Assembly: GCF_026914265.1 (NCBI RefSeq)
Contig: NC_069127.1
Location: forward strand, 25,434,637 to 25,498,636
Direction: 5' to 3'
DNA: 64,000 nt
Source of the DNA: Mya arenaria
Taxonomy: Eukaryota > Mollusca > Bivalvia > Myida > Myidae
Made by a program: the position numbers and the translations under genes. Every line of letters starts with the position of its first letter. Within the stretch, counting starts at the first letter, position 1. The notes beneath the pieces are model-generated. The model did not search any database. It was not told the DNA's origin and saw only the letters and a program-made list of their open reading frames with translations. Below, in pieces: positions 9,641 to 37,773 of this stretch.

Positions 9641-9837
9641 TTATGACATAAACGCCCTAACAGTGCCTTTTATGACTGTCCGACAGATGGCGCATTTTCG
9701 GAGTGCGTGCGCACATTCAGTGCATGTCACCATGTGACCGCACGGAAGGAAAACCATGCTGGCGTCGTTGTCCATGCAGACCTTGCACATCATCTGTTGT
9801 TTCAAGGACTCGTTTTCTTCGGATAACTTCTGCTTAG
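9641..9837 (-). CDS. IAP-A exon 4, RING finger
   Basis: 65 residues and TAA. Short helix ([14 protein letters not shown]), then C-x2-C, PCGH, C-x2-C and CAIC ligands, ending [13 protein letters not shown] with a C-terminal aromatic-rich tail is standard for IAP RINGs, which dimerise through the tail. Confidence 0.9.
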
Positions 9838-11233
9838 CTGAAATTAGATATGGGATATTTCAAACATTCGTCGGATAACTTCTGCTTAGCTGAAATTAGG
9901 TAAGGGATACTTTAAATATTTAGCGGTATATTCCTATCGCTGCTATCCAAAAAAAAATTGCTCGAGCTATCGCAAAATTTTAAACGTTTCTTTGTTATTG
10001 CAAATGGGACACGAGTTAGAAATCAACTAAATTTTAATAAACCAACTGTATTGAATTGTTTCGACATAGTCCATTATAATGTAAAAATTACCTTCGTCTA
10101 AACCAGTCGCTCTTCGTTGTTCTGCTGGAAATGTATTTTTCGATGCTGCTTCTGGACTTTGTATTGACTTTGTGCTGTCGGTGATATTCGAGATTTGCTC
10201 TTTATCAGTGATATTTGAGCTTTGTTTTCTGTCGGTGATATTCGAGATTTGTTCTCTGTCGTTGATATTCGAGCTATGTTCTCTGTCGGTGATATTCGAG
10301 CTTTGCTCCCAGCCTGTGATATTCAAGTTGTGTTCCTCCACATGTTCGGTCTCATGATTGGCCGCAGCGCTTTGGTAGGTCAGTAAATAATCTATCACCT
10401 CCTCTTTTCTCGCTATATAGGAGTCTAAAATAAGATATTAAAATACCATGATTGAGTTATAATCGGTCAAACATGTGGAAAAGACAGAATCAATAATTAA
10501 AGGTTTTTTTTGTACCTGTATTAAAAAAAGTAACTTTTTAAATACGGATTATAAAAATAATAACTTTTGACTCTAGTTAAGATTTCAATGTACCTGTGTT
10601 GTGTGTTGGCTGCAACAGCGCTTCGTCAATTGAATTTGCTGAAAATCCCATCTCTTGTAGCTCCTTTATAAGGGTTCTATTATCATTACTTTCACTCGGC
10701 ACAATACTACTTGCAGATGCAGATTCAGTGTCCTCAAAAAGTGTTTGTTGGTCAATATACCGTTGATCTGTATCCGTGTCTGAGTTACCGAAGCTTTCAA
10801 GCCCGCTTGTCTGAAGACACGTATCGATAAATTCCTGCCCTTTGCACTGTTTAACGTATTGGCAGTGCGGGAACCATCGCGCGTGCTCAATCCAGGGATC
10901 GTCACCATGTTCCCAGTTACGCATGCCCCCTCCGCAGAAGAAGCAGCGGACGCAGTCTGCGACCCCTTAATACAAAATAATGTTAAGCATATTATTATAT
11001 TCCACATAATTATTTTAATCAAATTATGCTAAGAACTTCTAAACCTGCCATCCTAAAGGACTTAAATGATAGCTCCACTTAGTCTTAGTAGCATATACTT
11101 GACTATACTATTTAATCACTCTTGTTATCAAGATATTTAACATCATATTTGGCATTCACCTACCACAAGCGGATTCAGGGGGGGGGGGGGTCGCTACCTG
11201 CACCCCCCCCAAAAAAAAAAAAAAAATTATAAA

Positions 11234-11264
<31 letters not shown>

Positions 11265-14200
11265 TAAAATAATAATAATAACGAATCGTCGAGGTTTACT
11301 TTTATTTCAATATCGGAGAAGAAAAGTAATACAATACGCTAAAGATGCACCATTTCGGACTAGAAATTACAAAATTTCTTTGGGGGAGGACCCTCAAACC
11401 CACCTGCCAACACTTTACACCAAATAAATTTCGTTTCTGGGGGAGGGGCGCAAGTAATATAGGTACGCATGTATATAAGAATACAATATTTTAAATGTGT
11501 GTCTTTAAATCAATTAACAATAACTCTTTATCTTTTTGTTTCATACTATCAACATGAAAAACTACATTTTATATGTGTTTTATTTTGTTTATCTTCGTTC
11601 AAACGTTGCAGAAAATTGCAGAAGTTTGGAAATTCACGTATATATTGTTATACAGATTTCTTTCTTGTCTATATAATCATATGACATTTAAAAACTTCTA
11701 CACATCGACTATCAAAATTAACTAGGACGACAAAACCTCACTAATGATTTTCACACATAAAATGGTATATTGATACATAAAAAATGGACTGAACGAATTT
11801 TCCAACCCGTTTTACCTTTAAAAATCATGCAACCGTTGTTAAAAAGATATCAAAAGTTCATTAACAATTCCAACTTCTAGACATAACCTTTTACATAAAA
11901 AAACATAGTGGCTGACTTTATCTTTCTCGGGTTAATATAATATTCAATCACTCTCCATGACATTTAATAATTATATAATGTTCAAAATAGGTAAGTCTTT
12001 ATAGCAAAAAAGGGCTATGTGAAGCTAGTTTTTCACGACAATTTACCCATTTACACTGATGGTTCCTATGTACGACAAATGTAAGACTAATCGCAGCGGT
12101 CCATCGTTTCTAAATACAATTATTTCTGTTTCCTTCTGAGTGATATCCATACCGGTATTTTCACTACATTTAGAAGAATTATTTTATTTTATTTGTAATT
12201 TAATAGCGTTGTCAGCGCATCGCCACCCGCGATGCTTCGGAACGTAAATACCTCTTTAGAAAGGTAGACAACTCATGTAAGCATACATTAACTATTTATT
12301 TTGTTTTTGTTTCCCTTGTATTGTTGTAATCTTATAATAAATGGGATGGGTTTTATCATCATCGCCTACTCGTACATATCCACGTAAATTTTACTACATA
12401 GGCATTGATTCCTTGGACCCATTTTATGCAACCAGGTATTGCTATATCTATCTATGTATCCGTACCGAAATTCGTTGAACTTTTTGCCAGTGATAGGAAA
12501 GTTAAGTATTAAGACAGAAATTCGATAGTATTATTTAGCACTCTCTGACGTCACTCTTTTTCCCCATAATTCTCTGGTAGGTGGCGCTTTTTTTAGCGCT
12601 TAAAACATTGTTAAGCGCGCCTCCAGCCGAGCGGCCATTGTTTAGATATTAAATTTGAATAAATTTGAAAAATGGCGTCTGGTAGTGCGAGATTGAAGAA
12701 CGCGGTGAATGTTGAGGGTTCGATTATGTATGTACAAAAAGCTTTTGAACTAAGAAATATGTTTGTTTATATTTAACATATCTAATTGATATCTATAAAG
12801 CAACCACTGTCCCCTCACCGTGATAATATTATAGTATTATAAATATATATAATAGGTTGTATTTTACAATAATAAAGTGTTATTTATTGTAAACTTTTGT
12901 AACAATGAAATTGTATTTGACCACTGATCATGTGATCATGTATCCCCCCCCCCAAATGATAGATGAGTCATGCGCTGTGACGTAAAACTTTAAGTCATGA
13001 CGTCAGTAAACATCATCGCAAGTTTAGTGAAATGTATATTAATGCGCTTTTCTATGTATTTTTTCACACACAAAAAATTGTAATTTAAAGTATGCTAGAA
13101 AAAATACCTATCATGTGTGTCCGTTCCGGATAGATTAAGCCGACCCTCGGGAACCCTGCGTAGTCGGTAACTCGACAAGTGTCGGATTATTCTATTCGGG
13201 ATTGAAACCCATGACAGACATAATTATTGTTGTTGAATAAAAATAGTTATACGTGGTCCGTAAAAAAAATTGGGAAGTACTTGTTTATATTATCAAATAA
13301 ATGTATTAAGCATTGCTAAAAAAAATTATAATTCTAACAAAAACTATCCGTACTTTGGACTGAATATTTAATAGGATCAAAAAGTATTACCTGTATGAAA
13401 AAGACCACACTCTACGAGGTGTTTTGATGAAACAATATGTGAATACGCCCATTCCTTAAAAGTGTCGTGTCTTTTACGTGTATTTGCATACTCGGGATAT
13501 TTAGCTGTATTGGTTGAGTCGCTAATTTCCCTTCGAACCATTTTCCTTCCATTTTCTTGATGATCTCCATTATCGTTTTCAAGTTCATTTCTATTTATAT
13601 ACTCTGGTTTTCCATGATTATGACACGGAGTAACTTCTTCATTGGGCCCAACACTACAAGCGGAATTACCCTGATTTCCACTTGACTCATTTGCGGAATG
13701 AATAGCGATATTTGATTCATCTTTTCCAGTTATAAAGGCACAATCTGGTGATATATTCCGGTGTGTGTCATCAACTGATACTTCACGTGGCCACTCGTTA
13801 TTTGTAACACCACAACTGAAGCACTGTACGATATCTTTGTCCCCTGTGTAGAAAAACCCACTTTGTGAAAGTCGGATGAAACTGATGTCTGGATTGTCCA
13901 CCGGAAATTTATTAAACGATGCGAATCTGTTCCATTCTTGTTCCATGTGTTGATTGTCTCTGCTCAATGGGAAACATTGAATATGTCGAGCGGCAGGCTC
14001 AAAGAAATTCGTATAAAGGTCTCTCGTCATATGTTGTTTAGTATTTTTGGCCGCTTCCCGTACGCAATCCCCTATTTTTGAACTGAAAAGGTCCAAAACA
14101 TTATTCATCTCATGGTCAATGTGTGGACTGGTTGGTCCATGTTTTATTTTCACGTAGCAGAAACACAGCATTAGTATTGCACTGTCAAGATGCTTTTCGA

Positions 14201-14492
14201 TAGGTAACTCCGGGATGGTTCCTTTAACAAAAAGCCACAAATCATGTGTATCGTTATTTCCATTTAATGTATTCTTGGAAATTTCAATTCCAGTTGTGAA
14301 TTGACTTCTGTTCATTTTGACAGATTCCATCATATCCATATGTCCAACACATGTCGTAGTTGCATTTTCCCATCTTTCGACAAAATCCCGTCCATTTGAA
14401 AGTTCTCTGCAATTTTGCTTGTCACCCCAATACAGGCATAAGCTTATAGTACATGTTATAATAAATAAGAACACTTTAATCAAAAAATACAT
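9641..14492 (-). CDS. IAP-A: BIR-BIR-UBA-RING inhibitor of apoptosis
   Basis: Four exons (14492-13391, 10965-10594, 10424-10092, 9837-9641) join with GT-AG sites, every intron after codon position 1, giving 667 residues. BIR1 (about 187-255) has C224-x2-C227-x16-H244-x6-C251. BIR2 (about 331-403) is split by intron 1 and has C375-x2-C378-x16-H395-x6-C402. A UBA-like segment ([20 protein letters not shown]) follows, then a repeat region of SSNITDREQ-like units and a C-terminal RING. Family role: binding of caspases and other IBM proteins by BIR, ubiquitin chains by UBA, E3 ligase activity by RING. The first 186 residues are unrecognised and begin with a hydrophobic stretch. An in-frame TAA 21 nt upstream fixes the start. 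Intron 1 (2.4 kb) carries repeats. Neighbour copies B and C share the exon plan. Confidence 0.88.
9820..9899 (-). repeat. 52-bp tandem duplication of the exon 4 splice acceptor
   Basis: GGATAACTTCTGCTTAGCTG followed by AAATTAG occurs twice, 52 bp apart. Each copy contains a CAG acceptor (exon start 9837 or 9889). Use of the distal one would add 52 nt and shift the frame before the RING. Confidence 0.75.
10092..10424 (-). CDS. IAP-A exon 3, N-I-T repeat linker
   Basis: 111 codons. Six or so imperfect units of 9-10 residues around S-N-I-(T/N)-D-(R/K)-E-Q lie between about residues 520 and 575, rich in N-x-T sequons. IAP-B has a degenerate form; IAP-C lacks it. The antisense frame at 10172-10357 is only its shadow. 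Confidence 0.85.
10594..10965 (-). CDS. IAP-A exon 2, second half of BIR2 and UBA
   Basis: 124 codons starting [11 protein letters not shown]. It holds all four BIR2 zinc ligands, the CKGQEFID motif after the BIR and the MGF-containing UBA core. Confidence 0.9.
11157..11450. mobile_element. hAT-like MITE copy in IAP-A intron 1
   Basis: Left end ACAAGCGGATTCAGGGGG, right end GGGGGAGGGGCGCAAG. The middle (AGATGCACCATTTCGGACTAG, AAAGTAAACCTCG reverse) matches the element at 50577-50860 in opposite orientation. Homopolymers and AAT/AAAT repeats fill 11177-11281. Confidence 0.55.
11685..12540. other. IAP-A intron 1 segment homologous to IAP-B intron 1
   Basis: No gene. 12110-12320 resembles 31295-31560 (CAAATACAATTATTT, AGAAAGGTAGACAACT against AGAAAGGTAAACAACT), showing that the A/B duplication included introns. 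Confidence 0.5.
12672..12727 (+). CDS. Possible first exon antisense inside IAP-A intron 1
   Basis: AAAATGGCGTCTGG opens a short basic frame ([17 protein letters not shown]) reaching a consensus-like donor AT|GTATGT. Just upstream, 12540-12640 is GC-rich and CpG-bearing (TGACGTCA, AAGCGCGCCTCC) like a small promoter. No downstream exon was found. It may be the 5' end of a transposon or a dead promoter. Confidence 0.2.
13122..13202. repeat. Small palindromic repeat
   Basis: CCGGATAGATTAAGCCGAC is followed about 40 bp later by GTCGGATTATTCTATTCGG, an imperfect reverse complement. Confidence 0.4.
13391..14492 (-). CDS. IAP-A exon 1, hydrophobic N-terminus, BIR1, start of BIR2
   Basis: 367 codons plus one base, donor CATACAG|GTAATA. 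Residues 3-21 ([19 protein letters not shown]) look like a signal peptide or membrane anchor. Sequons at N43, N61, N80 and N246. Residues 30-186 match no family I know. Confidence 0.85.
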
Positions 14493-16286
14493 TTTGTTCA
14501 GGTTTGTTGGTTAGGATCATGCATCACGGTGAGTAAAACGTAAGTTGTTGGTCTACTGTATTTATACTAAATTTCTAGAATCCCAGTAAATCTATTTTAA
14601 TCCAGTTTATTTTTAAGAAAGATAATTCTCAAAAGGGAAACTTGTTTCGATTGAATAATTACTTTAAGTGAGCTACCTCGGAAAGTTAAACTTGTAAAAG
14701 GCCCTTCTTTCTAATTATTACTCTGTCGTCATGTTTAACTTTTCTTTACGCTACTGCAACGAAGGAACCCATGCCAACTCATTATGCTAAAATATAAAAC
14801 GTTAACTCTCCATTATATTTTAAACAAAACTTCTTTAAAGCAGTAAATAAATTTTAAAAAATGTTTTGTCATTATTAAAGTTGATTTCAAATTTAAAGCT
14901 GCACTCGCACAGATTTAACGGTTTGACAACGTTTTTATTTTTTGTCTTGGAACGAGCCAATGTTTGCGAAAATCCGTGGAAACCAGTTAAATACTCGACT
15001 CGTGACAAAAAAATTAGATCGCATATTTTTATATTTAAGTTCAAAATTTTATGTTTTATGCATTTTTCTTAAACCGTTGGTTTAGGCCATAAAACATTAG
15101 TTTTCGAACGAAAATATGAAAATCTACGATCTGAGTTTTTAAGAAATCTTTAATCATTGGTTTGCAGATATTTACGCAAAACATTGTTCTTTCCACGACA
15201 AAAAAAAAAAAAAAATGCAAACACTGGTAAATCCGTGAGAGTGCAGCTTTAAGTTCGAAAATGCATATCCATATTCTGTTACTGGCAAATTCCAAGAGTA
15301 TGCGTTGTATGCATGTAAGGTGTACCTTTATGATCCAAAATACATAAGCATACAATACAATTATCTGATTAAGGATAGGCATTTTTAAGAACTAGCGTTT
15401 ATTTGGATTTATTTAAAAAATTACATATACGGACAACAATTTCCCGTTATATCAGTTACTGCACCCATTATTTATGCACAAATTAGTAAGAAAAACTCTT
15501 GCTGTATTCCCTGCATGGCTATGTGTGTTATCTCATTACATCATAACATAAGTTCATAAAAGCCGTTCCTTTTAAAGTTCTCACAATGACAGTTGAGTGT
15601 CTACTTATATTTTAAGAATATTAAAATAAAATCACCTGAATGCTATTTTGTTTACCGATATCAATATCGTGATTTCAGTCGTAGGCCTCATAAAACAACA
15701 ACCAAAAAACTGTAAAAGCTTTAAAACAATATATATCGTAAAATGGTTTGTATTTTCTGTACAAAGTCAAGGTGATACGAGTTTTAGTCTTGTTATATCT
15801 ACATAAAAACTACTACGAGCGGTATTTCGTCCCAGTTCTTTGTTTTATTATGTTTTCTTTTCTGTAATATAAAATAAAATATCCGGCCGTATATTTGTTT
15901 CTGGCCCGAGGTAGATATTTTCTAGCCGGATATTAGTCATGGGCATTATCCTGCCTGGGATTTTTCTGAATTTGCTGAGTTGAACGGGTTCTGAGTACTA
16001 CCTAGTACGACAGGTCCACCTTCCACACCGTATAAAAAACTACTCCGGGTAAATTTGCAAAGCTGGCCTTAAATCATCGCAACAAAACATGTTGTCCGGG
16101 TAGACCTTGTACTCACTAGCATAAATTAAGTATGAATTACTGCAGTTTAACAATGTCAATTTTCGTGCTATTAATTTCTCTCCTGTGTACTAATGCACAG
16201 AAATTAATGTTTACTTTTTGTAAGACACTAATTCATGCGTGTAGGTGTTGTGTCACTTAATTAAGTTATTAAATCTAAACCTTAAG
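14493..16286. other. IAP-A upstream region, copy 1 of a segmental duplication
   Basis: No gene. Much of it aligns with the sequence upstream of the IAP-D relic: the start-codon region (AATACATTTTG), CTCGGAAAGTT, CTCATTATGCTA, ATTAGTAAGAA..., and GTTCATA...CCTTCCTTTTAA-like blocks at 15470-15600 against 20260-20450. Near 16110-16270 it matches 22510-22590 and 23620-23760. The MITE-B copy here is absent from copy 2. Confidence 0.6.
14893..15252. mobile_element. MITE family B, copy 1
   Basis: About 360 bp, bounded by TTAA with long inverted repeats: TTAAAGCTGCACTCGCAC at left and GAGAGTGCAGCTTTAA at right, then TGTCTTGGAACGAGCCAA inside each arm and AACCGTT near the centre. TTAA at both ends suggests TTAA target duplication. 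Frames crossing it are not genes. Confidence 0.8.
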
Positions 16287-17215
16287 AATTGAATGCCCAG
16301 CAACAATGTTTCAGATCTTCGGACTATACTGATTATTTAATTTCACAAAGAGTAATGTTTGAAAGTACATATTTTATGTATTCAGCTACAGCAAGTAAAC
16401 CCCCCACTACTACTATATTTGAAGGTCTATTAGAAAAAGGTACATACAGTTACCAAGCTTTTCTGACTAGTATCAGCAGAGAGCACAACATGGCCCTGGA
16501 CTAAAAAGTAGTATCTTCAGCTAATGGCATTCATTTCACTAAAGACATTTACTTACAATCCCAAAAATAGTAATCGACTGCAAATTTGTACCACATGGTA
16601 ATAAGAACATTGAGTGCGACTATTGGGGGCAGTATTTGATGTTGGAAACAGAACACGACTTCAGTTGGGTGATATTCAATATTAATCTTAATTGGGTCTA
16701 AGATTGATGTAGCCAATCGGATTGCGTCGCACAAATAACCAACAAACACAAATAATCAATTTAATGAAGTATGGCCATAGGCTTGACAAATTTTGATATT
16801 GAATACCTCCCTTGATCACTTTTCAAACAGGGTCAACTTTTCACTTTTGATTTTAATTAAGATTTTAATTAACGGTGGGTGTCAGTTTTTACCGTTTCAC
16901 CGTCATCTATTGGAAAATGACGCCTGTGATGAACATTCAACGTGGTCAAAATTTAATGTAGCACCGGTCGACCGTGCTTTCGGGGCATTAATCCGCCTCC
17001 TTTATGTTCCATTCAACAATTGCCTTTTCTGTCAAGTTTTTTTCCCTTTTCTTTCATTTCCTTCCAATCTTCCCCTTTAAAGGGGATGGACACCAGATGG
17101 TCCAAATTCGGCAAATGCAGTGTTTCCTCAAAACAAGCCTGGAATTGTAAATGTGAGCTAGTAGGAGGCCGATAATACATCATTTTACATTATTGGAAGA
17201 ATAAGTGTAAATGTA
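16287..17215. repeat. Segmental duplication, distal block, copy 1
   Basis: Aligns with 23750-25075: TTCAGCTACAGCAA, GTACCACATGGTAA, TTGGGGGCAGTAT, GATGTAGCCAATCGGATTGC, CACCGTCATCTATTGGAAAA, CACCGGTCGACCGTGC and ACACCAGATGGTCCAAATTC. It has no equivalent of the MITE-C insertion in the other copy, so it gives the empty site. No gene is supported; the frames here are short and not conserved between copies. Confidence 0.75.
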
Positions 17216-17219
17216 CGTA

Positions 17220-19130
17220 AAGTTATCGGCCTGGTGGCCTAGCGGCGTGAAGTTAGCAGCCCAGCGACCAGGCGGCCTAGCGGCGTGAAGTTGGCGGTCT
17301 AGCGGCCTAGCGGCCTATTTTTTCTCTATTTCAAAGCAATTGTTAATGCGTTTTTTGGAAAACAATGATAAAAAAACAAACATTTTTATTCAAACACTAA
17401 CATAGCGGCGTTAAATTGTTTACTCAGAGCATTTCAAAAAAGTCGATCAAGCAGTCAGCTATTTCAAAGCCTGTTAACATGCCTGTTCTTCTAAAACAAT
17501 GATAAATGTATGTATGTAAAGTTAGCGGTCTGGCGGCGTGAAGTTAGCGGCCTAGCGACGTGAAGTAAGCGGCCTAGCGGCATGAAGTTGGCGGCCTAGC
17601 GGTCTAATTTTATCCTCTATTTCAAATCAATTGTTAATGCGTTTTATGAGAAAGCAATGATAAAACAAAAATTTTATTCATGCATTTACATAGCGGCCTT
17701 AAATTGTTTTCTATTCAGTGCATTTTTATATACGTTTTCTTCTAAAACAATGATAAATTAACTGTTTTAATGCTCAAATTATCAATCTGAAGCGAAAATA
17801 AACATTTATTTTTAAAAAAGTCGATCAAGTAGTTTAGCGGCCTAGCGGCGTGAAGTTAGCGGCCTGGCGGCCTTAATATAGCGACCTAAAATGGTATCCT
17901 AATTCAAAGCATGTATACATGCCTTTTCTTCTAAAACAATGATGTATTAACTGTTTATATGCACAAATTATCACTCTGAAGCGATTATCAACATTTTTAT
18001 CAAAAAGGTCGATCAAGCAGTCAGCAATTTCAAAGCATGAAAACATGCCTGTTCTTTTAAAACAATGATATATTAACTGTTTTAATGCACAAATTATCAA
18101 TCCGAAGCAACAATAAACATTTCTTCAAAAAGTCGATCAAGCACTTCAGCGGCCTAGCGGCGGGAAGTTAGCGGCCTAAAATAGTATCCTATTTTAAAGC
18201 TGCACTCTTACAGATTGACCACCCTAACAACATTTTTTTTTTTTGTCTTGGAAAGAGTAAATTTTTGCGTATATATCTGCAAACCAATGATAAAAGATTT
18301 CTGACAAAATTTCAGATCGTAGATTTCCATATTTCCGTTCGAAAATTAATGTTTTATGGCTTAAACGGTTTAAGAAAAATGCATAAAATATCATTTTTTG
18401 TACTTAAATATAAAAATCTGCGATCTGATTTTTTGTCAGCAGTCTTATATATCTGGTTTCTATGGATTTTTGCAAAAATTGGCTCGTTCCAAGACAAAAA
18501 ATAGAAAAGTTGTCAAAACGTTCAATCTGTGAGAGTGCAGCTTTAAAGCATACATGTCTTTTTTTTCTTAAACTGGGTTACATTTTCCGTTTTTATGCAA
18601 CAATTATCACTCTGAAGCGATTAGCAACAAAAAAAATTCAAAATAGTCGATCGAGCAGTCAGCAATTCAGTCAAAGCATGTCAACATGCCTGTTCTTCCA
18701 AACCAATGATATATTTACTGTTTTTATGCACAAACTATCACTCTAAAGCAATTATCAACATTTTTTTCAAAAAAGTCGATCAAGCACCTCAGCGGCATAG
18801 CGGCATGAAAGTAGCGACCTGGCGGCCTAGCGGCCTAAAATTGGTTTCTATTCGAAAGCATTTATTCATGCGTTTTCTTCTAAAACAATGATCAATTTAC
18901 GTTTTCTTTCAGACATCAACATTCTTTAGCGAATAGATTTATCGTTGTTTTAGACGAAAACGCACGTATAAATGCTTTGAAATAGAAACCAATTTTTGGT
19001 CTCTCGGCCGCTGGGCCGCTAGGCCGTTTTGCCGCTAACTTCACGCCGCTAGGCCGCTTAGCCGCTGAAATTGCTTGATCGACTTTTTAGAAAATTGTTG
19101 ACAATCGCTACAGGATGTTAATTTCTGAAT
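17220..19130. repeat. AGCGGCCTAGCGGC satellite array with an inverted end block
   Basis: A diverged tandem array. Each unit has a GC-rich head of short GGCCTAGCGGCGTGAAGTTA words and an AT-rich body (CTAAAACAATGAT, GCACAAATTATCA, AAAAGTCGATCAAGCA). Heads lie near 17230, 17520, 17690, 17830, 18150, 18790 and, in reverse orientation, 19005-19075. Unit spacing is about 250-330 bp. It encloses a MITE-B copy. Weak frames such as 17873-18100 are repeat sequence. Confidence 0.75.
18194..18546. mobile_element. MITE family B, copy 2, inside the satellite
   Basis: TTAA ends, TTAAAGCTGCACTC at left and GAGAGTGCAGCTTTAA at right, with the TGTCTTGG arm on both sides. It splits the satellite, so it arrived after the array. 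Confidence 0.8.
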
Positions 19131-19312
19131 CAAAAACATTTATTTTCGTTGTCCATTGGCAATGACATATCCCATCATCTTTGTCGAGAAATGTTTCATT
19201 TACCAATCTTTTGAAACATAATTGATAGTGTGTGAGTTCTCTGCATATTTGAATGTTGTCCGAATCCAAACAAAATAATACCGAAAATTATGAAAACGCT
19301 ATTCATAAAATA
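19100..19312 (-). pseudogene. IAP-D: 5' relic of a fourth IAP gene
   Basis: The sequence around 19275-19340 aligns with the start of IAP-A: the ATG context AAAATACATTTTG is shared, and the frame begins MYF followed by a hydrophobic run (VFIIFGIILFGFG). A frame change then occurs, and CREL with spaced N-x-T and C residues follows, as in IAP-A (CRELSNG...NAT...C). The match ends at the satellite, and no BIR-coding sequence follows. It is a truncated, frame-disrupted remnant of exon 1. Confidence 0.6.
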
Positions 19313-20627
19313 CATTTTGCTCATGTGTGTTGATATATATCATGCTTTAACGTAGAGTAAGCCGTGAATCACTATTTCTACTTATTTATACTGCCAGAAC
19401 AACGTATTTCCAATGGTCTAATTTTAAACACTCGGAAAGTTTATGTTAAGAGTTCGACCACTCCAACACTTATGAGATATAAATGTTGAAATTGCATATA
19501 CATGCTAATTTGAGTAATCGTAATGATAACATAAATATTTTTAATGCATTTTGTATCATTTGTTTTCACTAGTTTCAAAATCTAGGCAAGATATGTAAGT
19601 GATTTAACGGGTTTAAACGTAAATAACGAAATCCGGGATCCCATTTTATATTCTAATTTTAAATATTTGTTAAACAACCCGTTACTTCATACAGTGATAA
19701 GACAGAGCTTTAAATAGTTATAAATAGTTAATATTGTGGTAAAAGTTCTTAATAATATCAATGCAACGAACAAACACAGCACCTACTCATTATGCTACAT
19801 CAAAAATCATTAATAAATAATCTATGTTATTTACAAGACATTTGAAAGAGGGTAAATCAATTTCAAATAGTAAATAATGTTTATTCATTTGTAAATTTAA
19901 ATCCTAATTTAAATATTTAAATATACACATCCGCATATGAGTAATGATACACGTCGACATAATCATCTTTCAATAGGGATGTCTCAACAGCTTTGGTATT
20001 AAAGAAGGAAATACATTCTTTATTTAGATCATCAACATCAAGCCAGGTATGTTTACCTATACGATTTGGAATGCATATAAGGATAGCATTCAATTCTTCA
20101 ATATCGAGAAATTGAATACAGATAAAAAGACGTTTACCTGGTATAGGGTAGTCATTTGAAGAACTGATTATGTATGTGGTTTAATGAATATAATTATGAA
20201 TAAATTTCCGAGATGTACATAAAGCGAATTCCCGTAATCAATTTTTGAAGTGGCAGTCTAAGTGGTAGAAATACTGCACTGAATACCCTCATTATATATA
20301 CAAAGATTAGTAAGAAGGAATTATTTTCTGAATTCCCTGTATAGCGTTTATGTATACTATATCATCATAAGATGAGTTCATACCGACCCTTCCTTTTAAT
20401 GACCTAAAAAGGTCAGTAGATTGTATCAACTGACATTTAAGAAAAATAAATTGCAATTACTCACTCTGTTTCGTGAGTAATATAATTATTCACTTAACAA
20501 AATTCTTTTCAACGCCCAAACAAACAACCTACACAAAACTAGGAATAAGGTGTATTATTGGCAGCATTTTTCACATTTGATGGATAAATAAATTGAATCT
20601 ATGTGTTCCTGGTTTGTCGTCTTGATA
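19313..20627. other. Upstream region of IAP-D, copy 2 of the segmental duplication
   Basis: Aligns in blocks with 14493-15620. No independent gene, RNA or repeat is supported. Confidence 0.55.
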
Positions 20628-20942: not shown

Positions 20943-21125
20943 AACGTCTCCAGACATGTTGAGCCGGCGCCTGTCACATCCGGTCCCTTTGGAATCCAAT
21001 ATGGAGATAAATCTTGTCACTTCCGACACCGGTACGGTATTATTCCGATACTAAAACGATACTACGTGTATATTCAAATATGAATAAAACTATCGGATAT
21101 GTTTGGATTGTAACCAATCTTAACA

Positions 21126-21190: not shown

Positions 21191-21385
21191 AATGTCAAGT
21201 ATAAATTTTTACGAAAATATACAAGCGGTTAGGATTTATTGTAGTTTTATATTCTATCATGATAATGCTAACATCTCTTATGTAATACCTATCTCGCTAG
21301 CCCTTGCAGAAAATATTGCCGTATTTTAAACCAGTCCCGCTTTCAATACTTTATTATTCTTTCCGCTAATTCCTAGTAAACAAAC

Positions 21386-26742: not shown

Positions 26743-26795
<53 letters not shown>

Positions 26796-28369
26796 TGGGT
26801 ATTATTATGTCTGCCGTTTTTAACCCATTATGTATGATCTGAACATCGAAATTTACAAACGGTACCTTATTTCCACAAGAAAATAATGTGATCAATCAAA
26901 CTTTCAATAAGTCTCTGATTTAATATATTAAGAAATATATCACCAACGTCTTGAAACATCCATAAATATCCATAGCCATACATAAATTGCATATTCGTTA
27001 AATGGCGTAAGTTTTAAGTACTCTTTTATCACTAAATACTTGACAGAGTACGTGGATCGTACATGAAACTGTACCACAAGAAATGTATTTTTTCTCCTTT
27101 TTTCGATGAGAGCTGAATGCTCGAATATTTGCTTCCATACAAAACATATTACAGACGAATACAACTGATTGGTTGTTAAAACTTAAAAATGAGAACGTTT
27201 TTAAAATCGTCTTTGTTAACTTTCAAATCTTTACTTTTATCGAAATGACCTGCAGTATCTTAACAATGTTTAAGACAAACCTTTCAGATGTACTTGTTTA
27301 AATTTATTGAAATAGTTCACCCTGAAATGGTAACAACAATGTCGTTTATCTCAATGTTAACTTTAACAAAGTTCTGAGCGATCGGCCCATTGTCTAGTCT
27401 TTATGCAGTACAACTATTGCATTGTAATATTATAACATTAAAATATTATATTTTCGTTCGTAAAAATATATAGTTGGTCTTATTCAGGGATTTTGTAATA
27501 GAACCTGCACCAACTAACTGAGTTCATTGAAAGTATGTTCACGAGCGCAAACCGCGAGTTGTATATTTTCAATTACAATGGTAGTAGCTTTAGTATCTGT
27601 GCTGTACTATAGTGTCACCAACAGCGTTCAGTAAGAAGCGTGTGTTTAAATGGGTTGCATTGTCATTAATCCGTTCGTTACTTATTGTTCGGTCAGAGCT
27701 CTGCCTACTAATTACCGTTCGGACATGACAATTAAAGAACGGAGGAAAACATATAAACGCTCTCCAATTCCATATTACACTTTTTATATATTTGCTTAAA
27801 TTAGTTATTTGATTTAATAATGATTAACTAATGATATTCACATGTCAACTCTTCAACAAAATATCTCTTATATGTACTATTTCAATCATCAAAGTGTACT
27901 TCACCTTTTGGTTTTAAATGATACTTATATTGTATAAAACTATCTGTCTACCTAGGTTACCAGGTGCCTAAGGTAACATTTGCCACTGTTTCGTTTTTAT
28001 ATAACCACTAATATAAGGTTTCAATAGTTTATTAGAGTCTCATCAATACACCTTATACCAACATAGATATAGCCATTACAAGCCATTAAGTATTGGCACT
28101 CATTTCATGAGTTATAGGAGACTATAGCACTAAACATTCGATATATATATACAAAATTCAGGATCGATATATGTTCAACACACAATATTGCACATATATA
28201 CTGGATAAAATTTAAACAATAAAAAAATATAAGACTAAAGAGTTATAAGAAAGAACCTAATAAGCATTTATATTAATTGTGTTGACAGTGACTGAAGGGA
28301 TGCTAAAGTTATTAAAATATTGTATACACATTATTTAATATAAAAAGCAAGCAAACAAGTCATCTATAC
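25802..28369. other. AT-rich intergenic region with a CA/CG microsatellite
   Basis: No gene supported. A (CA)n then (CG)n microsatellite occupies about 26720-26794; the frame over it (26704-26895) is an artefact. Other frames are short and featureless. Confidence 0.5.
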
Positions 28370-28813
28370 AACAGCTTTTAAAATCATAAAACAGATTTTG
28401 GTGCTGACTTTTAGCATATCTTCATTTGACAGTACAAATATGAATTTGTTTTGTTCGCATAGATTAACATAGTTGCGATCAACTTCACAAACTTTTGCAT
28501 TTAAACTATCTCTTATACACTGATAACTATTTCAATAAAACAAAACATGTATTTCATTCTTAACTATAGTTTTACAAAACGGACATAGGCGTGAATTTTC
28601 TGGAACATTTTCAAATCTGCCAGATTCTAGTCTAAACTTAGCTAAGGCGGATCTATGTTTAGTAGGTAATTGTGTCTTAACATAGTTTTCTAACACATAT
28701 TCTTGTTTAAACAGTTTATAGGTCCTGAGCTTGTTAAGGTGTGAGATGTGAATATAAACGCAAGTCATAGTGAGATTGTTAACAAAGTTAATGTTATATG
28801 AAAAAGCACACAT
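28370..28813 (-). mobile_element. LINE 3' fragment (C-terminal end of a non-LTR polyprotein)
   Basis: The minus-strand frame reads TKHRSALAKFRLESGRFENV, then RLCPFCKTIVKNEIHVLFY. A basic helix followed by C-x2-C and E-x-H-x-L is the tail seen after the reverse transcriptase in many invertebrate LINEs. After a stop and frame change the same tail seems to continue (RDSLNAKVCEVDRNYVNLCE and KFIFVLSNEDMLKVSTKICF). No reverse transcriptase core is present. It is an old, 5'-truncated copy. Confidence 0.65.
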
Positions 28814-29350
28814 TCTTCACAGTTCATCACCTGTTATTGTTTGAAATATCAAAATCGATATAAGGACGGACGATCTAGAAGTGTCGCTACTTCTATTAAG
28901 GGTTGCTTCACTTGCAGGATCTGGCTAGACATATGAACAACGCATAACCATGTTGAATAATTGGCGAAAAAGCCGATGCCGGACTGACCGGTCAGTATGA
29001 CCAATGAGTATTGTTGACATATTGGTCACAAACAGGACACAAACATACATGGTAAACCACAAGAACAGTGTTTCGGATACAAATAAAACAGGCATTGAAA
29101 TGTACAGAATATAGTCCTCGTCTATATAACATCAAATAAATATTCGTTATGTGATGCGTTCAAACTCCTCCTAAATTACACTTAATGCCTAACAATGAAT
29201 AGCTTAACACACTTCATTTCACTTCATCTAAGCACTCGACCCACATTAGCATTTGTAAATCGTGATATCATTTATCACAAGTCTGTTGTATGCATTGTAT
29301 GGTCCGAATACTAACCAATTAAAATAACCAATTACTCTAGCTAGGCAGCA
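28814..29350. other. 3' flank of IAP-B, no gene seen
   Basis: AT-rich; should include the 3' untranslated region of IAP-B. Nothing else supported. Confidence 0.4.
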
Positions 29351-29547
29351 CTAATACATTAACGCCCTAACAGTTCCTTTGATAACACAACGACAGACTG
29401 CGCAAGTCCGGAGCTGGTCCGCACATTTAAAACAGCAGACCATGTGACCACACGGAAGGAAGACCATGCAGATTTCGTTGTCCATGCAAACCTTGCACGT
29501 TATTTGTTGTTTCAATAACTCGTTTTCGTCAGATAACCTCTGATTTA
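29351..29547 (-). CDS. IAP-B exon 4, RING finger
   Basis: 65 residues and TAG, the same length as in A and C. Ligands CKVC, PCGH, C-x2-C (CFKC) and CAVC are all present; the tail is KGTVRALMY. Confidence 0.8.
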
Positions 29548-32500
29548 CTGAAATTAAATAGCGTAACTTTCAAACACCTAACATATTCAATGACGACGTC
29601 AGTTAAATGTATGGTGTCAAGTAAAATAAATAAATGAAACAAATACAAAGGCTTTCTTTTAGTTACTGTTCAAAATAGGAACATGATAAAATCATCTGAA
29701 AGAAGTTCAAGATAGTCTTGCGAACAATCTATACTTATTTCAAGATACCTTCGGCTAAATCATTTTCAAAAGTGGTGTTCGATGCTACTCCTGGTATCTG
29801 GTTTATATCCGCGCTGCCTGTTGTTTTCAAGTTTTGTTCTAGGCTGGTGGTATTCGAGTTTGGTTCTCTACCTGTGGTATTTGAGCTTTGTTCTACTTCT
29901 GCGATGTTCGAGTTTTGATTTCTACCTATGGTTTCTCTGTCTGTGATGTTCGAGCTGTGTGCTATATTTATAATGTTCGAGCTGCGTTCCTCTGGTTGTC
30001 GGGATAGACCTGAAAGGTCTTCCAGTTCGGCCTCATGGTTGGTTCCACTGCTTTGGTGAGTTAGTGGATACTCTTCATCTCTACTGGCTAGATAGGAGTC
30101 TGAAATACGATAATAAAATACTAAAATCATCGATTATACGGAAAACTTTATGATTCCACTTGTACTGGCATCGATTCCAATATAATAATTTACTCAGTTG
30201 AAAATTATATGTACCTGTTTGGTTTGTTGGCTGTATGGTCGCTTCCTCAATCGGTTGAACTTCTTTATTCAGGAAATTGTTATCATTACTTCGACTCGGC
30301 ACATTGCTACTTGTAGATGCGGATACTGTTTCCGGAATAAGTGTTTGTTGATCTATATACCATTGATTTGCAGCCATTTCAGAGCTTCCGAAGTTTTCAA
30401 GCCCATTTGCCAGAAGACACGTATCGATAAATCCCTGACCTTTGCACTGTTTGACGTATTGGCAATGAGGGAACAAGCGCGCGTGCTCAATCCAGGGATC
30501 GTCACCCTGTTCCCAGTTACGCATGTCCCCTCCACAGAAGAAGCAGCGGACGCAGTCTGCAACCCCTATATTGCAAAATAAGGTTAAGAAGGATATTTAT
30601 ACTGTAAATATGTGCTAAGAACAACTTACCTGTCGTAACAAAGAACTTACTAGTATATTAATACACTTTATTGATGCCAATTTGATAAAATATAAACAAA
30701 CCATATGTTCATCACTTGCATATACCACGATATAGTTACTCGTTAAAACGACTAAGTATCTCATTAAAACAAGTCACATATGTCGCTATAACGACATACC
30801 TATCATTTAAAACGACATTTTGGCTTATTGGCAAACCAGATTCCCGCAATAATATCATTTGAGTTCGCTATATTGTAAACATCGCTTTGGCAATAACTGA
30901 TTTTCTTACCCACGATCTGATTGGCCTATAATGTCGATTTAGCGAGATTCGTGAGTCGTTTAAACAAGATATAAGAGAAATTAAGTCATTTTAATAAACT
31001 ACCTTGTCGTTTTAACGAGATACGTAAGTTGCTCATATGAAATAAAATAAAAATAAAACGTATGTTATCCCATGCCACCGTACACCATTGTACATGAGCT
31101 CTCTATCCTCAACTGCCTGCCTACTCGTCATTTCAGCGTCTGGCTGTACCTCGGGACGTTTCTTGCGTTACAAGGCATATGCTGTTTTTGTCTGCGTCTA
31201 GGATAACTAGGCGTGATTATTAGCCCAATATTTGTATTCACCGATGCATTATTCATAGGGGCTCGATTATTAGACTTTTTTATATGATCGTAGTGGTTCG
31301 ATGTTTCAAATACAATTATTTTTGCTTTCTTTTGATGAATATTCATACCTGAATTTTCACATAATTGAAAAAAGAATTAAGTATAATTCTAGTTCAAACG
31401 CCGTGTCAGTACAATTCGCCATGTCATCTGCTAATGTACGCATAATATCCGCGAATAGCTCCGTACTTAGAAAGGTAAACAACTAATGTATGTATGAACT
31501 AGAACTTATCGTACTGGTTGCGTTCCCCTGCCTTGTGCCAACATTTATGTATTATTTGTATAACTAGTAAGGATCTGCGTTGATTTTAATACACGTAAAA
31601 GTTTTCATTGAACCTCATTTTTAAGCAAACTAGAAAACAGTTTTTGGTTTATTAATCTATCAAACACCCTTTTCAAGAATCCACGTATAAAGCTATTTCT
31701 ACATTCAGTTTTTCTGGTATTTTTTTACCATACTTTGCACTGTACATCAATTGTCCGCTGTCGAATATCCAATACTGGAAACCAGCCTGTGCTTGATCTT
31801 TAATTTAAGTATGCCTATAGATGTTTGAACGTCAGAAAATTTAGAATTTTTTCATCAAATGATAAATACGGTGTCCCGAGCTAAATTATTCAGATTGTAG
31901 TCATATTTAAACAATTGACGTCGAAAACAGTTCCGCCATGGTTCAGGGTGTATGCTCGGAAGATCTTTTATATCATCAAGTTTTCAGCAATTTCCAAAAT
32001 CATTTAAGACTTAAACTTATCGCTTTTGGCATGCTGGTACAAGTGCTCAATTTATAACAAGTAGTATTATAATGTCTTTGTAGAGATACTTGTATATAAG
32101 TTTGATACTATTTAACGTATTGAGGTGATTTACACGCATCTGCGCAGAAGAATCGCAATAAAGTATTGTCCTAAATATCTTTCTTAAACTATAGCAAACA
32201 ACATACACTGTTGCTATTTGCGAATTACGCTTATAATGTGACGACATGAAGCAGGTGAAAAATATGTAAAAATCAGCATGAACGTGCAACATTGGGAAAG
32301 TCAGGCTAGATAAAAAAAAAAACACAACAATGAGCTTATGGAAATGTTCGAATCGCCGTGGCAAAACTAAGACAAAAACCTTCTTTGGGGAAAAACACAG
32401 AAACCTCGACCCGTTTGTCTCCAGCACTACAGAACTGTCCTACCACTAGATTCCAATTGTATCTCAATACACTCAATCGTAATGACGAACGTACTCGGCT

Positions 32501-33585
32501 TCCCGACATTAAGTACTGTACTATAATTTACACCTGCATTTATAATATTCATATGAATTTCATTTACAACTTGTATGGGAGTAAAACTGCACTTAGTCAC
32601 GAATATACGAATGACGCGAAAAATTTCTATAATTATGTACATCTTTCCATTTGAATTTTTAACGTGTGCGGAAGTTTTTGGCACTCAGTGTACCTGCTAA
32701 ATTAACAGTTGGTCTTATATAAAGAACAAAGTGGTTTTGTAAACGAGGGACCAGTTGAATAAACAATTGAAAGCAACAAAAAACATGTTGTCAACAAAAT
32801 CTACATTTGAATGTAACATTTATGTCATACAAATATTGAAAAATATAAAATATAAAAAAGCTAGTAACGTTGTTTTTATTACTTGTAGTTTTCCACTAAA
32901 CTACTTACAGGGGATTTAAATTTTTGAGCTGTACTAGTTAAACAGATTGAACGTTTTGACAACTTTTTTTACTTTTTTTGTCTTGGAACGAGCCATTTTT
33001 TGCGAAAACCCATGAAAACCAGTTACATAAGACTGCTGACAAACAATAAGATCGCAGACTTTTGTATTTAAGTTAAAAAAATGATGTTTTATGCATTTTT
33101 CTTTAACCGTTAGTAACGGTTTAACCCATAAAACATTAATTACCGGAAGGAAATATGAATATCTACGATCTGATTTTTTGTCAGCAATCTTAAATCATTG
33201 GTTTGCAGAAATTTATGCAAATAAATTGCTCTTTCCAAGACAAAAAAAGTTGTAAAAATTGTATATCTGTGAGAGTCCAGCTTTAAATGTGCAATACAAA
33301 TAAAGCTTCAATTCGATTTGGACTGGGCTAGTAGAAGAATACCCACAAATGCTGTCTTAATATAACACAAAGCAATTACATTGTATATAGTAATTCGATT
33401 AGTTAAATATAAAAAAGAGTTTTATTACCTGTATGAAAAAGACCGCTCTCGACGAGGTATTTTGATGGAACATTATGCGAAAACGTCCATGTGTTAAATG
33501 TGTCCTGTCTTCTACTTGTGTTTGCATACTCAGGATATTTTGGGAACATTTTAAACAATGCGAATCTGTTCCATTCTTGTTCCAT
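29351..33585 (-). CDS. IAP-B: single-BIR RING IAP or recent pseudogene
   Basis: Exons 2 to 4 (30565-30215, 30099-29749, 29547-29351) match IAP-A exons in length class, phase and splice sites. Exon 1 ends at 33429 with donor CATACAG|GTAATA. Its frame from ATG 33585 reads [15 protein letters not shown] and then jumps to KYPEYANT, so the rest of BIR1 and the linker are missing. From this ATG the four pieces stay in phase: 351 residues with one complete BIR, a damaged UBA and a RING. Just upstream of the ATG the frame is disrupted by a short repeat of GAACAAG, and the former 5' part is decayed. It is either a truncated single-BIR IAP with a new start or a pseudogene; transcription would decide. 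Confidence 0.6.
29749..30099 (-). CDS. IAP-B exon 3, degenerate N-I-T repeat linker
   Basis: 117 codons beginning [10 protein letters not shown] as in IAP-A (DSYIARKEE). Units such as [16 protein letters not shown] and NSNTTSLEQ are recognisable but more diverged than in IAP-A. Confidence 0.75.
30215..30565 (-). CDS. IAP-B exon 2, BIR2 zinc ligands, damaged UBA
   Basis: 117 codons. C-x2-C-x16-H-x6-C of BIR2 is intact (CFFC...EHARLFPHC). The UBA segment has lost the MGFSANS stretch of IAP-A and reads [13 protein letters not shown], so ubiquitin binding is doubtful. Confidence 0.8.
30600..32915. other. IAP-B intron 1, no gene seen
   Basis: Contains the block shared with IAP-A intron 1 (31295-31560). 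Small frames at 32047-32684 show no domain and are probably chance. Confidence 0.5.
32916..33286. mobile_element. MITE family B, copy 3, degraded left end
   Basis: The right end GAGAGTCCAGCTTTAA and both TGTCTTGG arms are clear. The left end has decayed to GAGCTGTACTAG. It lies in IAP-B intron 1. Confidence 0.65.
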
Positions 33586-33625
33586 GCTTGTTCAATGTGA
33601 ATAATATCTCTGTGGTAACGAATAG

Positions 33626-33627
<2 letters not shown>

Positions 33628-33706
<79 letters not shown>
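33628..33706. repeat. TA and GA microsatellites
   Basis: (TA)n at about 33628-33665, then (GA)n to about 33706, inserted between the surviving and decayed parts of IAP-B exon 1. The frame 33558-33839 crossing it is an artefact. Confidence 0.9.
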
Positions 33707-33707
<1 letters not shown>

Positions 33708-33900
33708 AGCAGGTTCACAGTAATTCACATAAAGGTCTCTCGTAATTTGCTGTTGTTGTTTTTTAAGTTTGGCTTACGAACAAAAGCCCCTACTTTTAAA
33801 CTGGTAAGATCTAAACATCCTTCATCCTATTGTCCTTGAGGGAACTAATTTGTCCATGTTTTCTCTTCACGTAACAAACACACTTTATAGCGTTTATAGT
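33707..33900 (-). pseudogene. Decayed 5' part of IAP-B exon 1
   Basis: Aligns at the nucleotide level with IAP-A exon 1 at 13985-14170: AAAGGTCTCTCGT, CCATGTTTT.TCTTCACGTA and ACAAACACA against the IAP-A counterparts. Gaps and stops break the frame. No hydrophobic start survives. Confidence 0.6.
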
Positions 33901-34109
33901 CGCTTTAACTTAACGCCTCAAGTGAGATGAATCGTTGATCACATTCAAAGAACATATTCGCAACCAAAACTTCTCTATTCAACACTGATTTATTTTTCTT
34001 CTGTCATATGCGTCTCTATAAAGCGATAATGCATTTTTGTTGCATTTGTAATCGACCCGATACGTCTTACAGTCCATAACTAGGCCATCTGGTTATGGAA
34101 GTTTAAAGA

Positions 34110-34485
34110 TGCACTATAAGTCCCAAATAAGATTTACCACAATTAATAATATTGTTTTAATATTCCAAAAAGAATGAATAAATGTCGAAAACAATGGTTC
34201 TTATGAAGGATACCGAGTTTAATTTTTTAAGGAATGAGCATAAAACACGTTATTTCAGTATTTTGACCTTACCGTGAGACTAAAGTTGACCACAGTAAAT
34301 CTTTTAGCATTCACCAATCATTTAATATGTTTGCGCTTTCTGCTTTTAAATACACGGTTACAATCTTGTTATCAGTAATTAATATTTTCTATAAATGCAT
34401 TATTTAGTTAAAGGTTTATCAGTCAAAATTGATGTTTGTTATACATGTGTATGTATTGATTTTGAATAAGAATGCCACTTCAATC
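34110..34485 (+). repeat. Dispersed repeat F, copy 1
   Basis: Matches 52185-52475 in the same orientation: AATGAATAAATGTCGAAAAC, GAAGGATACC, TTATCAGTAATTAATATTTT and AAAGGTTTATCAGTCA. No coding capacity. Class unknown. Confidence 0.65.
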
Positions 34486-35356
34486 AGGTAGACAGTTATT
34501 CTACCGCGGTTTTTATAAATACATTGTATATAAAAATCCTTATATTATTAATATAAGAATAAAGTTTATTAATTTCGTTTAGACAGCCACTCAAGCAGCA
34601 TCAAGCTATCATTAAAATATAACATTTAAACAAACAAAACCACAAAATCACTTTTTTTCATATTTATGTAAAATGGTAAACATCAACAAATTCAATGCTT
34701 TCAATAATTACTCATAAACAACGTTTTTATAGGCATTTCGTTGGAATTCATAATCTAAAATTGATCGTAAAGATTTGAGCAAAAAATTCTTATGAATAAC
34801 ATGAACCTAGGGAGCAAAGCTACCCTAAGCAGTCCGAGGTAGATGGGTATATGCTAAATGATAAAAGAAAAGCGTGAACATAGTGCGTATAAAAACGGCA
34901 CATCAAAAGTAATACTGATATTAATAAGTAAATAAAAATAAGACAAATGATATGGTTATGGCACTTTTCAGAACAGAACATGCATTAACAAAATGGCCGC
35001 ATGCATATAAAGCAAAATATTGTACAAAAATGTCAACAACTACAAACATTCATACATTTTTTAAAAAAAGCGAAATCACAAATAAAACATTCAAAATAAA
35101 TAAAATGTGTAAAACTATGAATAATAAATAAATAAAAACATTCCAAGTGACCCTAATGTATAAGTGTTTCGTCGATATGGTATATACTATGTAAAATGTA
35201 ACCACTTGTAAATATGTCCAATACTTCCGGTAGTAACACCAAAAATAGATAAATAAATATACATTGTTTTCGTGACTAGTTCGATAACTTTCTTGTTGCA
35301 CATCCTTTCAAACAACCTTTATATTGGCGACGCACCGCCTTTCAAGATCTAAATTT
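34486..35356. other. 3' flank of IAP-C, no gene seen
   Basis: AT-rich; expected to contain the 3' untranslated region of IAP-C. A TTTATT word (AATAAA on the minus strand) is at about 34563. Nothing else supported. Confidence 0.35.
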
Positions 35357-35553
35357 CTACGACATGTAAGCTCGAACCGTCCCTTTTATGACTTTGCGAC
35401 ATATGGCACACTTTCGCAGCACACTTGCGCATTCTACACAAGCTACCAAGTGGCCACATGGTAAAAACACGACACAGGCGTCTTTGTCCATGCATACTTT
35501 GCACATCATTTGCTGCTTCAACTGCTCGTTTTCATACTTCAGCCTTTTGGCAA
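35357..35553 (-). CDS. IAP-C exon 4, RING finger
   Basis: 65 residues and [15 protein letters not shown] helix, CKVC, PCGH, CVEC, CAIC, then tail KGTVRAYMS. All eight zinc ligands are present. Confidence 0.92.
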
Positions 35554-37773
35554 CTGTAAGAAAATGACAAACATGTTTAATGTGCTAAAACATAACCATG
35601 TCCGCAAGACACTTTACAATGAGCAGAGTATACAGTATTTTACGACACCAGGACCGATATCTCGAAAATTACACTTTAGTAAATTATTTCAATTAGCTTA
35701 AAACATAATCAAATTTGATTTTGATGGATAAACATTAATTTGTTTATGAATGAGTATCATCAAGTTAATTCCTTATTTAAGTATTAAAGTAGAAGAACGA
35801 AAAATATAACTGGATAATAGAAAAGAAAGTGTGAGCGTAGCTTGATCCTGTTATAGGGAATAAGTTTCGAGAAATTCGTGCCTGGTGCATTCAGATAACA
35901 GTGTGTGTTTTTATCTTAAATTTAATCGTAAAAGGATGTGTTTTTATTGTAATTTCAATAAGCTCTACCATAAAGCAGTGATTAAAATTAGCATTAGCAA
36001 GAGCAGATTTAAACCCTTGGTTTAATAATTACCTTCATTCGGGTTAATTTCGCTTTCCTCGAGAAGAACTTCACTCTTGAGAACCTCTGTCTTATATTTA
36101 CAAGAGTGTCCGTGCTCGTCGTGATCATCGTCCTCAGAAGGTGGTGTTAAGGACTTCTGCGAGTGATACTCCGGAAGTGGTTGCTGTGATAGAGGACTTT
36201 GAGCAGAGGAAAGCAGGTATTCGAGAGCCTCATCGGGCTGAACTGGTCCTGAAATTTAGAAGTTTTTTTTCAATTTCATGCTCGAACAGTTAAATTATTA
36301 CTTAATTGGAACTGCTTGCATTATAATATTTATACATACTAGCTTGACATGTAATATTCAGGAGATTAACCGCCTTTGCTAAGGGAGACTTGCCTTACCC
36401 TTACCCTGCCTATGATAAGAGAAATGATTTTTATAGCTTTGTTTATGATATTTACATGTATTTATTCTGAATAAATAGTATATGGCATTATGAATAAAAC
36501 TTGTTGAAAATTCCCTTATTTGTTGTCTTGTGAATAATTATTACTTTTACTAAGCTTTGTATAATGAAGATATTTACCGGAATTTATTCTGCGTAAATTA
36601 TATAAGGCATTGTCAATGGAACTTCTTGAAAACCCCATATCTTGAAGTTCTTTGAGTAAATCTTCATCACAGTCAGTATTTGATTGCGTTTGGAAGAAGT
36701 CTTGTAAATTAGAGTAGACGTCATCTGAGCCCCCGAATGCTCCAACAAGTCGACATGAATCGATGAAACTCTGCCCCTTCTTTTGCTGCACGTACTCGCA
36801 GTTCGGGAACCAACGCGCATGCTCAATCCAAGGATCGTCACCAGCCTCCCAGTTGCGCATGCCTCCACCGCAGGAGAAACAGCGGACACAATCGGCAACC
36901 CCTGAAATATAAATAATTTGTATTTAATCTTCGACATGTTGCTGTTTATATAACGTTTTTGATGAAATTAAATACAAAAAGAAACGCATTATATATTTGT
37001 TTGTTCGCTTCTAGCTCAATTATATTTTGTTGCAACTCACCTGTGTAAAACAAGCCAGCATCCGCCAACAGATTTGAAGTAATGATATGGGAGAACGCCC
37101 AACTTATAAAGGTGGCCATTCTATCAGTGTTTGAGACGTAGTCAGGGTATTTCGCGCAACTTTGAGGTATAGGAGTTGTCTCCCGTCTCTCGCAATATAT
37201 AGAATCGACTGTTTCACGCTCCATTTCGCTTGTATTTGGAAATCCAGTTTGGGCGTTATTTAAAGCATCGTAACTTTGTTTGTTATTTATAGATTCAAAA
37301 TCTTTAACGGGAATCCCGTGTTTTTCTGGCCCGGTAACTAAATCGTCAGGTCCACCACTAGCTGATTCTTCTGGAACTTTCTGGGTTTCCGTTTCAGAAT
37401 CACAGTCTCCAGGATGAATAGGAATATTGGACTTGTCTAATTTATTCATAAACGGACAATTTGGCTGCAACTGTTTATGTATTTCATCGACAGGCAATTC
37501 CATCGGCCATTCATTATTTTTAACTCCACAACTAAAACATTGCATCAAATCCTTTTCCCCGTTGTAGAAAAATCCACTTTGTGCCAACCTAACGAAACTT
37601 GCATCCATTTCCCCTTGAAATTTGTTAAAGGATTGAAACCGTGCCCATTCATTTTTCATTTGATCGTCAAACGTCTCGTGTCTAGTTTCATTCCCCTGAT
37701 ATAACAACACATTGCTCTTTAAATTTCCATTCGCACCGTGAGAGTCAAACTGATTTTCGCGTATACCTTCCAT
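35357..37773 (-). CDS. IAP-C: BIR-BIR-UBA-RING inhibitor of apoptosis
   Basis: Four exons (37773-37041, 36901-36578, 36248-36033, 35553-35357) with GT-AG sites and constant phase give 489 residues with no break. BIR1 (about 42-108) has C79-x2-C82-x16-H99-x6-C106. BIR2 (about 208-281) has C252-x2-C255-x16-H272-x6-C279. UBA is at about 324-352 ([20 protein letters not shown]), then an acidic linker ([11 protein letters not shown]) and a RING at 442 onward. Roles expected from the family: inhibition of caspase activation and ubiquitin signalling through RING E3 activity, in the cytosol. Unlike A it has no hydrophobic N-terminus and no N-I-T repeats. It is the most compact and conventional copy, similar in plan to vertebrate cIAPs without CARD. 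Exact orthology is not claimed. Confidence 0.92.
36033..36248 (-). CDS. IAP-C exon 3, acidic linker
   Basis: 72 codons, low complexity, acidic/histidine-rich centre. Flanked by TTTCAG acceptor and GAAG|GTAATT donor, like exon 3 of A and B. Confidence 0.85.
36578..36901 (-). CDS. IAP-C exon 2, BIR2 zinc site and UBA
   Basis: 108 codons beginning [11 protein letters not shown], with the MGF UBA core at its end and donor TCCG|GTAAAT. Confidence 0.92.
37041..37773 (-). CDS. IAP-C exon 1, BIR1 and start of BIR2
   Basis: 244 codons plus one base, donor ACACAG|GTGAGT. ATG 37773 is the first in frame. BIR1 is complete; the linker 110-205 is polar and unstructured. Confidence 0.92.

Follow-up and report, generated by a model that had tools for sequence, protein, structure and literature searches.

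Human cIAP1 possesses three BIRs plus a CARD, and it works by holding a client with a BIR, binding ubiquitin through the UBA and ubiquitinating clients with the RING. The closest described system to the locus studied here is a bivalve array on chromosome 5 of the hard clam (Mercenaria mercenaria), in which, as the relevant sections of that study describe it, six same-direction inhibitor of apoptosis (IAP) genes lie in about 90 kb, with the RING in one terminal exon and the initial BIR across the first two exons (Song et al., PMC7831173). The same sections report gains and losses of BIR and RING domains as well as purifying selection (Ka/Ks 0.0817–0.4456), place 37.1% of the hard clam IAPs on one chromosome and put 51 intronless IAPs down to retroposition (PMC7831173). 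For the oyster C. virginica, the sections concerned describe IAP tandem arrays on two chromosomes, some of the IAPs having UBA and RING domains and some copies being intronless (PMC8917759).

Here we analysed a 64,000-nucleotide stretch of the Mya arenaria genome (the window, C6:25434637-25498636) and searched the whole assembly (1,216,080,610 bases, 18 contigs). We consider it highly probable, at roughly 80%, that the window covers the central part of a cIAP-like tandem gene array of the ordinary bivalve kind, grown by repeated local duplication.

A five-gene array on one strand

A first-pass annotation of the window had proposed three minus-strand IAP genes with a common four-exon plan, the same intron phase and equal 197-nt RING exons, together with a fourth, start-only copy, and our exon models agree. 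Genes A, B and C (Table 1) each have four exons and no internal stops, all nine introns are GT...AG and of phase 1, and the last exon of each is the 197-nt RING exon. The start-only copy is a real relic: it agrees with the start of A in 79 of 110 aligned columns, two stretches further upstream match at 70% and 68%, and its frame, which opens with MYFM, runs for 39 residues before a stop.

A genome search with part of C, tblastn on the flanks and exon modelling extend the array beyond both ends of the window, to five genes in 88.3 kb, all on one strand. The two outer genes, Z and D, repeat the plan (four exons, phase-1 introns, a 197-nt RING exon), so that several same-strand paralogues sharing one exon plan, the hallmark of a bivalve tandem IAP array, are present as a set of five. 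With part of C as the query, the nine best genome matches were exons of the cluster (115 of 460 candidates scored). Queried with A, B and C by tblastn (E ≤ 0.1) for further IAP copies beside the array, 70 kb of flank (30 kb below and 40 kb above the window) gave only the Z and D regions. The stretch holding gene C (window 34597-37850) and the D region share 3.3 kb at 88%; a separate 4.7-kb segment is repeated near C and D (window 38491-43224, L014:2576-7299) at 95%, closer than the gene block. Ten other frames of the window gave a single, sub-threshold match to Pfam, and Rfam gave nothing at gathering score.

Table 1 Features of the array (window positions unless prefixed by C6)
Feature	Position	Strand	Content	Basis
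Gene Z	C6:25425051-25428046	array strand	frame open further upstream to A-like start	exon model
A exon 4	9641..9837	-	197-nt RING exon	model + Pfam
Duplicated acceptor of A exon 4	9815..9920	-	52-nt tandem duplication	repeat analysis of sequence
A exon 3	10092..10424	-	linker with 27-nt coding minisatellite (10175-10335)	
A exon 2	10594..10965	-	second half BIR2, start of UBA-like segment	model + Pfam
A exon 1	13391..14492	-	hydrophobic start, N-terminal extension (about 182 aa), BIR1, linker, first half BIR2	model + Pfam
Start-only relic	19286..20450	-	promoter-proximal sequence, TATA-like box, ATG 19315, broken N-terminal frame	
B exon 4	29351..29547	-	197-nt RING exon	model + Pfam
B exon 3	29749..30099	-	linker with 27-nt repeat (29817-29932)	
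B exon 2	30215..30565	-	second half BIR; UBA core short of seven residues	
B exon 1	33429..33585	-	start ATG 33585 assumed; BIR1 deleted in frame, first half of sole BIR	
Decayed remnant of A-type N-terminal extension upstream of B	33628..33883	-	contains (TA)19(AG)21	
C exon 4	35357..35553	-	197-nt RING exon	model + Pfam
C exon 3	36033..36248	-	end of UBA-like segment, linker	model + Pfam
C exon 2	36578..36901	-	second half BIR2, start of UBA-like segment	model + Pfam
C exon 1	37041..37773	-	BIR1, linker, first half BIR2	model + Pfam
Gene D	C6:25510923-25513351	array strand		exon model

Domain content, selection and relatives

Pfam finds two BIRs and a RING in A and C, and one BIR and a RING in B. 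The BIR scores (A 115.7, B 71.8 and C 112.7 bits; cut-off 22.9) give each gene at least one BIR, as befits an IAP, and the C-terminal C3HC4 RING scores (52.9, 43 and 47.8 bits, respectively; cut-off 27) give each a RING. Between the BIRs and the RING, UBA_7 scores 23.2 bits in C and 15.1 bits in A, both under the cut-off of 27, and has no match in B; no CARD is found among Pfam matches at E ≤ 1. A and C are accordingly predicted by Pfam to be BIR-BIR-UBA-like-RING proteins, and Z and D, judged by alignment, are predicted to be likewise. Among solved structures, C matches best to 3t6p, named BIRC2 (cIAP1), at 165.6 bits in two stretches (that is, BIR2 and the last 61 residues). If the upstream copy of the duplicated acceptor in A were used, an early stop read by eye would yield a truncated product lacking the RING.

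The BIR and RING domains are under purifying selection, with dN/dS values between A and Z of 0.10 for BIR1, 0.20 for BIR2 and 0.26 for the RING, and of 0.06 for the RING between C and D. In a RING tree (5 cluster rows and 12 others), the cluster forms one side of a branch with support of 34/80. A BIR half-domain tree (30 rows, 51 columns), which left out matches of fewer than 37 residues and identical rows, and in which the polinton label of L001 is assumed and ‘C6_other’ includes the C2 locus L045, did not recover the cluster, and 19 of its 27 inner branches are open. When the RING of C was used as the query, the order among the matches listed was D, A, Z, a locus at C2:47.1 Mb (72%), four more loci and then B (67%); that is, five loci outside the cluster rank above B by RING similarity to C, among the best 150 of 322 candidates.

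Chromosome 6 makes up 6.9% of the genome and holds 81 of the 150 scored RING matches, in several tandem groups. The largest of these (C6:32905756-33013183; fourteen RING matches in 107 kb) is larger than the cluster in the window. A cluster-related IAP on C2 (L049, C2:47116500-47118900) lacks introns 2 and 3, and its linker is long, with RSEHHS-type repeats. Because a gap of ~200 nt is kept inside its BIR2 and the rest reads continuously through the RING, this locus may be a partly processed copy.

On these resemblances, the four complete genes most likely work as cIAP1 does. The second BIR would hold a client through its IAP-binding-motif groove, the UBA-like part would bind ubiquitin and the RING would ubiquitinate the clients, with the outcome that caspases would be restrained and immune signalling tuned. 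The genes of the cluster are presumably expressed.

A reduced copy within the array

Gene B departs from the other four. Where the aligned blocks span 409 nt in A, only 10 nt remain in B; the net loss, 399 nt or 133 codons, is in frame and removed BIR1 and the linker. The region of B that matches the extension of A is interrupted by a stop and by a dinucleotide array. The remaining BIR reads ARLFP where the other four genes align with ARWFP, a position that we take to be W323 of the peptide groove in XIAP. On the B branch, omega is 0.42 compared with 0.20 elsewhere (LRT 7.8), and an omega of 1 is rejected (LRT 10.5), on a branch that includes time before the losses; the branch shows purifying selection, relaxed. 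Given one BIR, no UBA core and ARLFP, B is probably either a putative ligase that binds its clients poorly or a gene being lost.

A stronger reading, that B is a pseudogene beside just four working genes (A, Z, C and D), strikes us as possible if somewhat doubtful. The decayed 5′ region with its microsatellite, the loss of BIR1 and of the UBA core, the substitution in the BIR and the raised omega all speak for it. However, B retains 351 codons without a stop and its splice sites, the net deletion kept the frame, the RING cysteines and histidine and the BIR zinc ligands are all in place in the alignment as read by eye, and the rejection of neutrality argues for constraint, albeit over a branch that spans the time before the losses.

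An N-terminal extension in A and Z

A, Z and the relic share a start of MY followed by a hydrophobic run, for which the best 15-residue Kyte–Doolittle means are 2.41, 2.29 and 2.27, respectively, compared with -0.25 in C. Some 135 residues ahead of BIR1 are common to A and Z at 46% identity, and a genome search with this extension matched only these two genes (next match, E 0.44). Such features, together with a frame open for 182 codons in A (a chance of ~1e-6 by base composition alone), could be taken to indicate that A and Z encode IAPs anchored in a membrane or routed through the secretory pathway and that the extension is a new domain. We regard this as unlikely: the dN/dS of the extension between A and Z is only 0.60–0.65, no match was found in Pfam at E ≤ 1 or in the PDB at E ≤ 10, a single-sequence fold prediction was uninformative (mean pLDDT 36) and a RING in the lumen would make no sense. 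The true start may instead be the Met of MEQEW, which is present in A, B and Z and may serve as an alternative start. The dN/dS is compatible with either a working domain or a tolerated extension.

That new IAP architectures are being actively produced in the cluster, a possibility that the first-pass annotation raised from copies differing in domain content, is quite improbable: B does differ, linker length does vary through a 27-nt in-frame minisatellite and the hard clam array, in the sections describing it, has three architectures among six tandem genes (PMC7831173), but four of the five genes here share one architecture, B arose by losses and the only young pair in the array is C and D (dS 0.14), so that the domain difference is a loss in one copy and not a new architecture.

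Dispersed BIR frames and Polinton-type elements

Outside the array, 97 of the 150 scored BIR frames lie within 15 kb of either a conserved 394-aa element frame or a DNA_pol_B_2 match, for which the chance is ~0.4% per position; conversely, 83 of 97 loci of the element frame have a scored BIR match within 10 kb. As a control, one of the 81 chromosome-6 RING matches is within 15 kb of such a marker, and this match is at 23.16 Mb and not in the cluster, by which we reject a position of the cluster in or beside a Polinton. The other 53 scored BIR frames are not near a marker, although some of them sit in elements by other evidence (the L021/L022 type, with an A32-type ATPase, and the L016 type).

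Given that only part of the candidates was scored in each genome search (BIR 150 of 559, C-part 115 of 460, PolB 91 of 208, element frame 105 of 187 and RING 150 of 322), these counts are lower bounds. Of the PolB rows, 106 of 119 were typed, the other 13 being weaker fragments at loci that the list already includes. Intact single-exon BIRs score best and introns split the BIRs of ordinary genes, and therefore the scored BIR list favours intronless frames; the BIRs of the window cluster are absent from the 150 because an intron splits BIR2.

Polintons (Mavericks) are marked by an integrase, an A32-type ATPase, PolB, an adenovirus-type protease and a capsid gene. Examined in pieces, the elements here contain an rve integrase with a chromodomain, an A32-type ATPase and weak protease matches. 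Their hallmarks are spread over different elements: rve exceeds its cut-off in L019 and L025 and Pox_A32 in L019 and L022, and in L025 a DNA_pol_B_2 match lies about 7.5 kb from the BIR frame. For the protease, Peptidase_C5 reaches 16.6 bits in L025, below the cut-off of 21.3, and a frame of L019 matches the structure of protease S273R at E 0.0007. For the 394-aa frame, Pfam yielded no match and the PDB none that convinces, and the label ‘capsid’ is given to it by position only.

Examples of dispersed BIR frames in Polinton-type elements are L019/L020, L021/L022, L025 and L026/L027. In the comparison of L019 with L020 (C5:6343000-6362900), BIR frames occupy both arms of an inverted repeat about 3 kb long (99–100%). 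A second dispersed type is found at L016 (C3:36.5 Mb), L017 (C9:60.2 Mb) and L018 (C12:59.4 Mb), with blocks mostly at 97–99% and one at 92–93%; L016 combines a BIR-RING frame of 298 aa with a protein kinase, frames for PolB and another RING, and a transposase-like HTH frame. A third type is near-identical between L023 (C2:65.5 Mb) and L024 (C9:17.8 Mb), over 6.7 kb at 99%, and has a 339-aa frame resembling BIR-BIR-RING beside cysteine-rich frames.

Many of the dispersed intronless IAP frames in this genome are probably element cargo. We tentatively extend this, at odds just short of even, to a scenario in which most dispersed intronless BIR frames would be cargo of virus-like Polintons (and of a second, PolB-plus-kinase element) that keep host cells alive by means of BIR proteins, host IAPs would expand in tandem arrays, many of them on one chromosome, and the ‘retroposed’ IAPs of bivalves would in part be such cargo. 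A non-exhaustive literature search found no paper joining Maverick with ‘BIR domain’ or Polinton with ‘baculoviral IAP’, and Adintovirus with apoptosis led only to a birnavirus paper; the portions of PMC8905726 concerned use both Maverick and ‘inhibitor of apoptosis’, but apart, and the latter term is absent from a paper on gene transfer among animal viruses.

Discussion

With the cluster, a known pattern gains one more well-defined array, in which one copy has lost domains in frame yet shows past constraint. The wider comparison matters more than the cluster, and the dispersed IAP frames of this genome deserve a study of their own: if they belong to Polintons, IAP tallies as well as the explanation of bivalve IAP expansion by retroposition have to be looked at again, and a contest between host and element over cell death would become testable.

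Set against human cIAP1 (BIRC2, 3t6p), the likeness is that BIR2 and the C-terminal RING of C match by sequence, whereas the complete genes of the cluster have two BIRs and a weak UBA-like part. Compared by description with the hard clam array, as the sections on it present it, the present locus is alike in its same-direction tandem IAPs, terminal-exon RING and BIR spread over the first two exons, and differs in having five genes in 88.3 kb, two of which (A and Z) carry an N-terminal extension (PMC7831173). The oyster IAP family, in another lineage and likewise compared by description from the relevant sections, also forms tandem arrays (PMC8917759). IAP tandem arrays are already known in clams and oysters, and the present array is one more of the kind.
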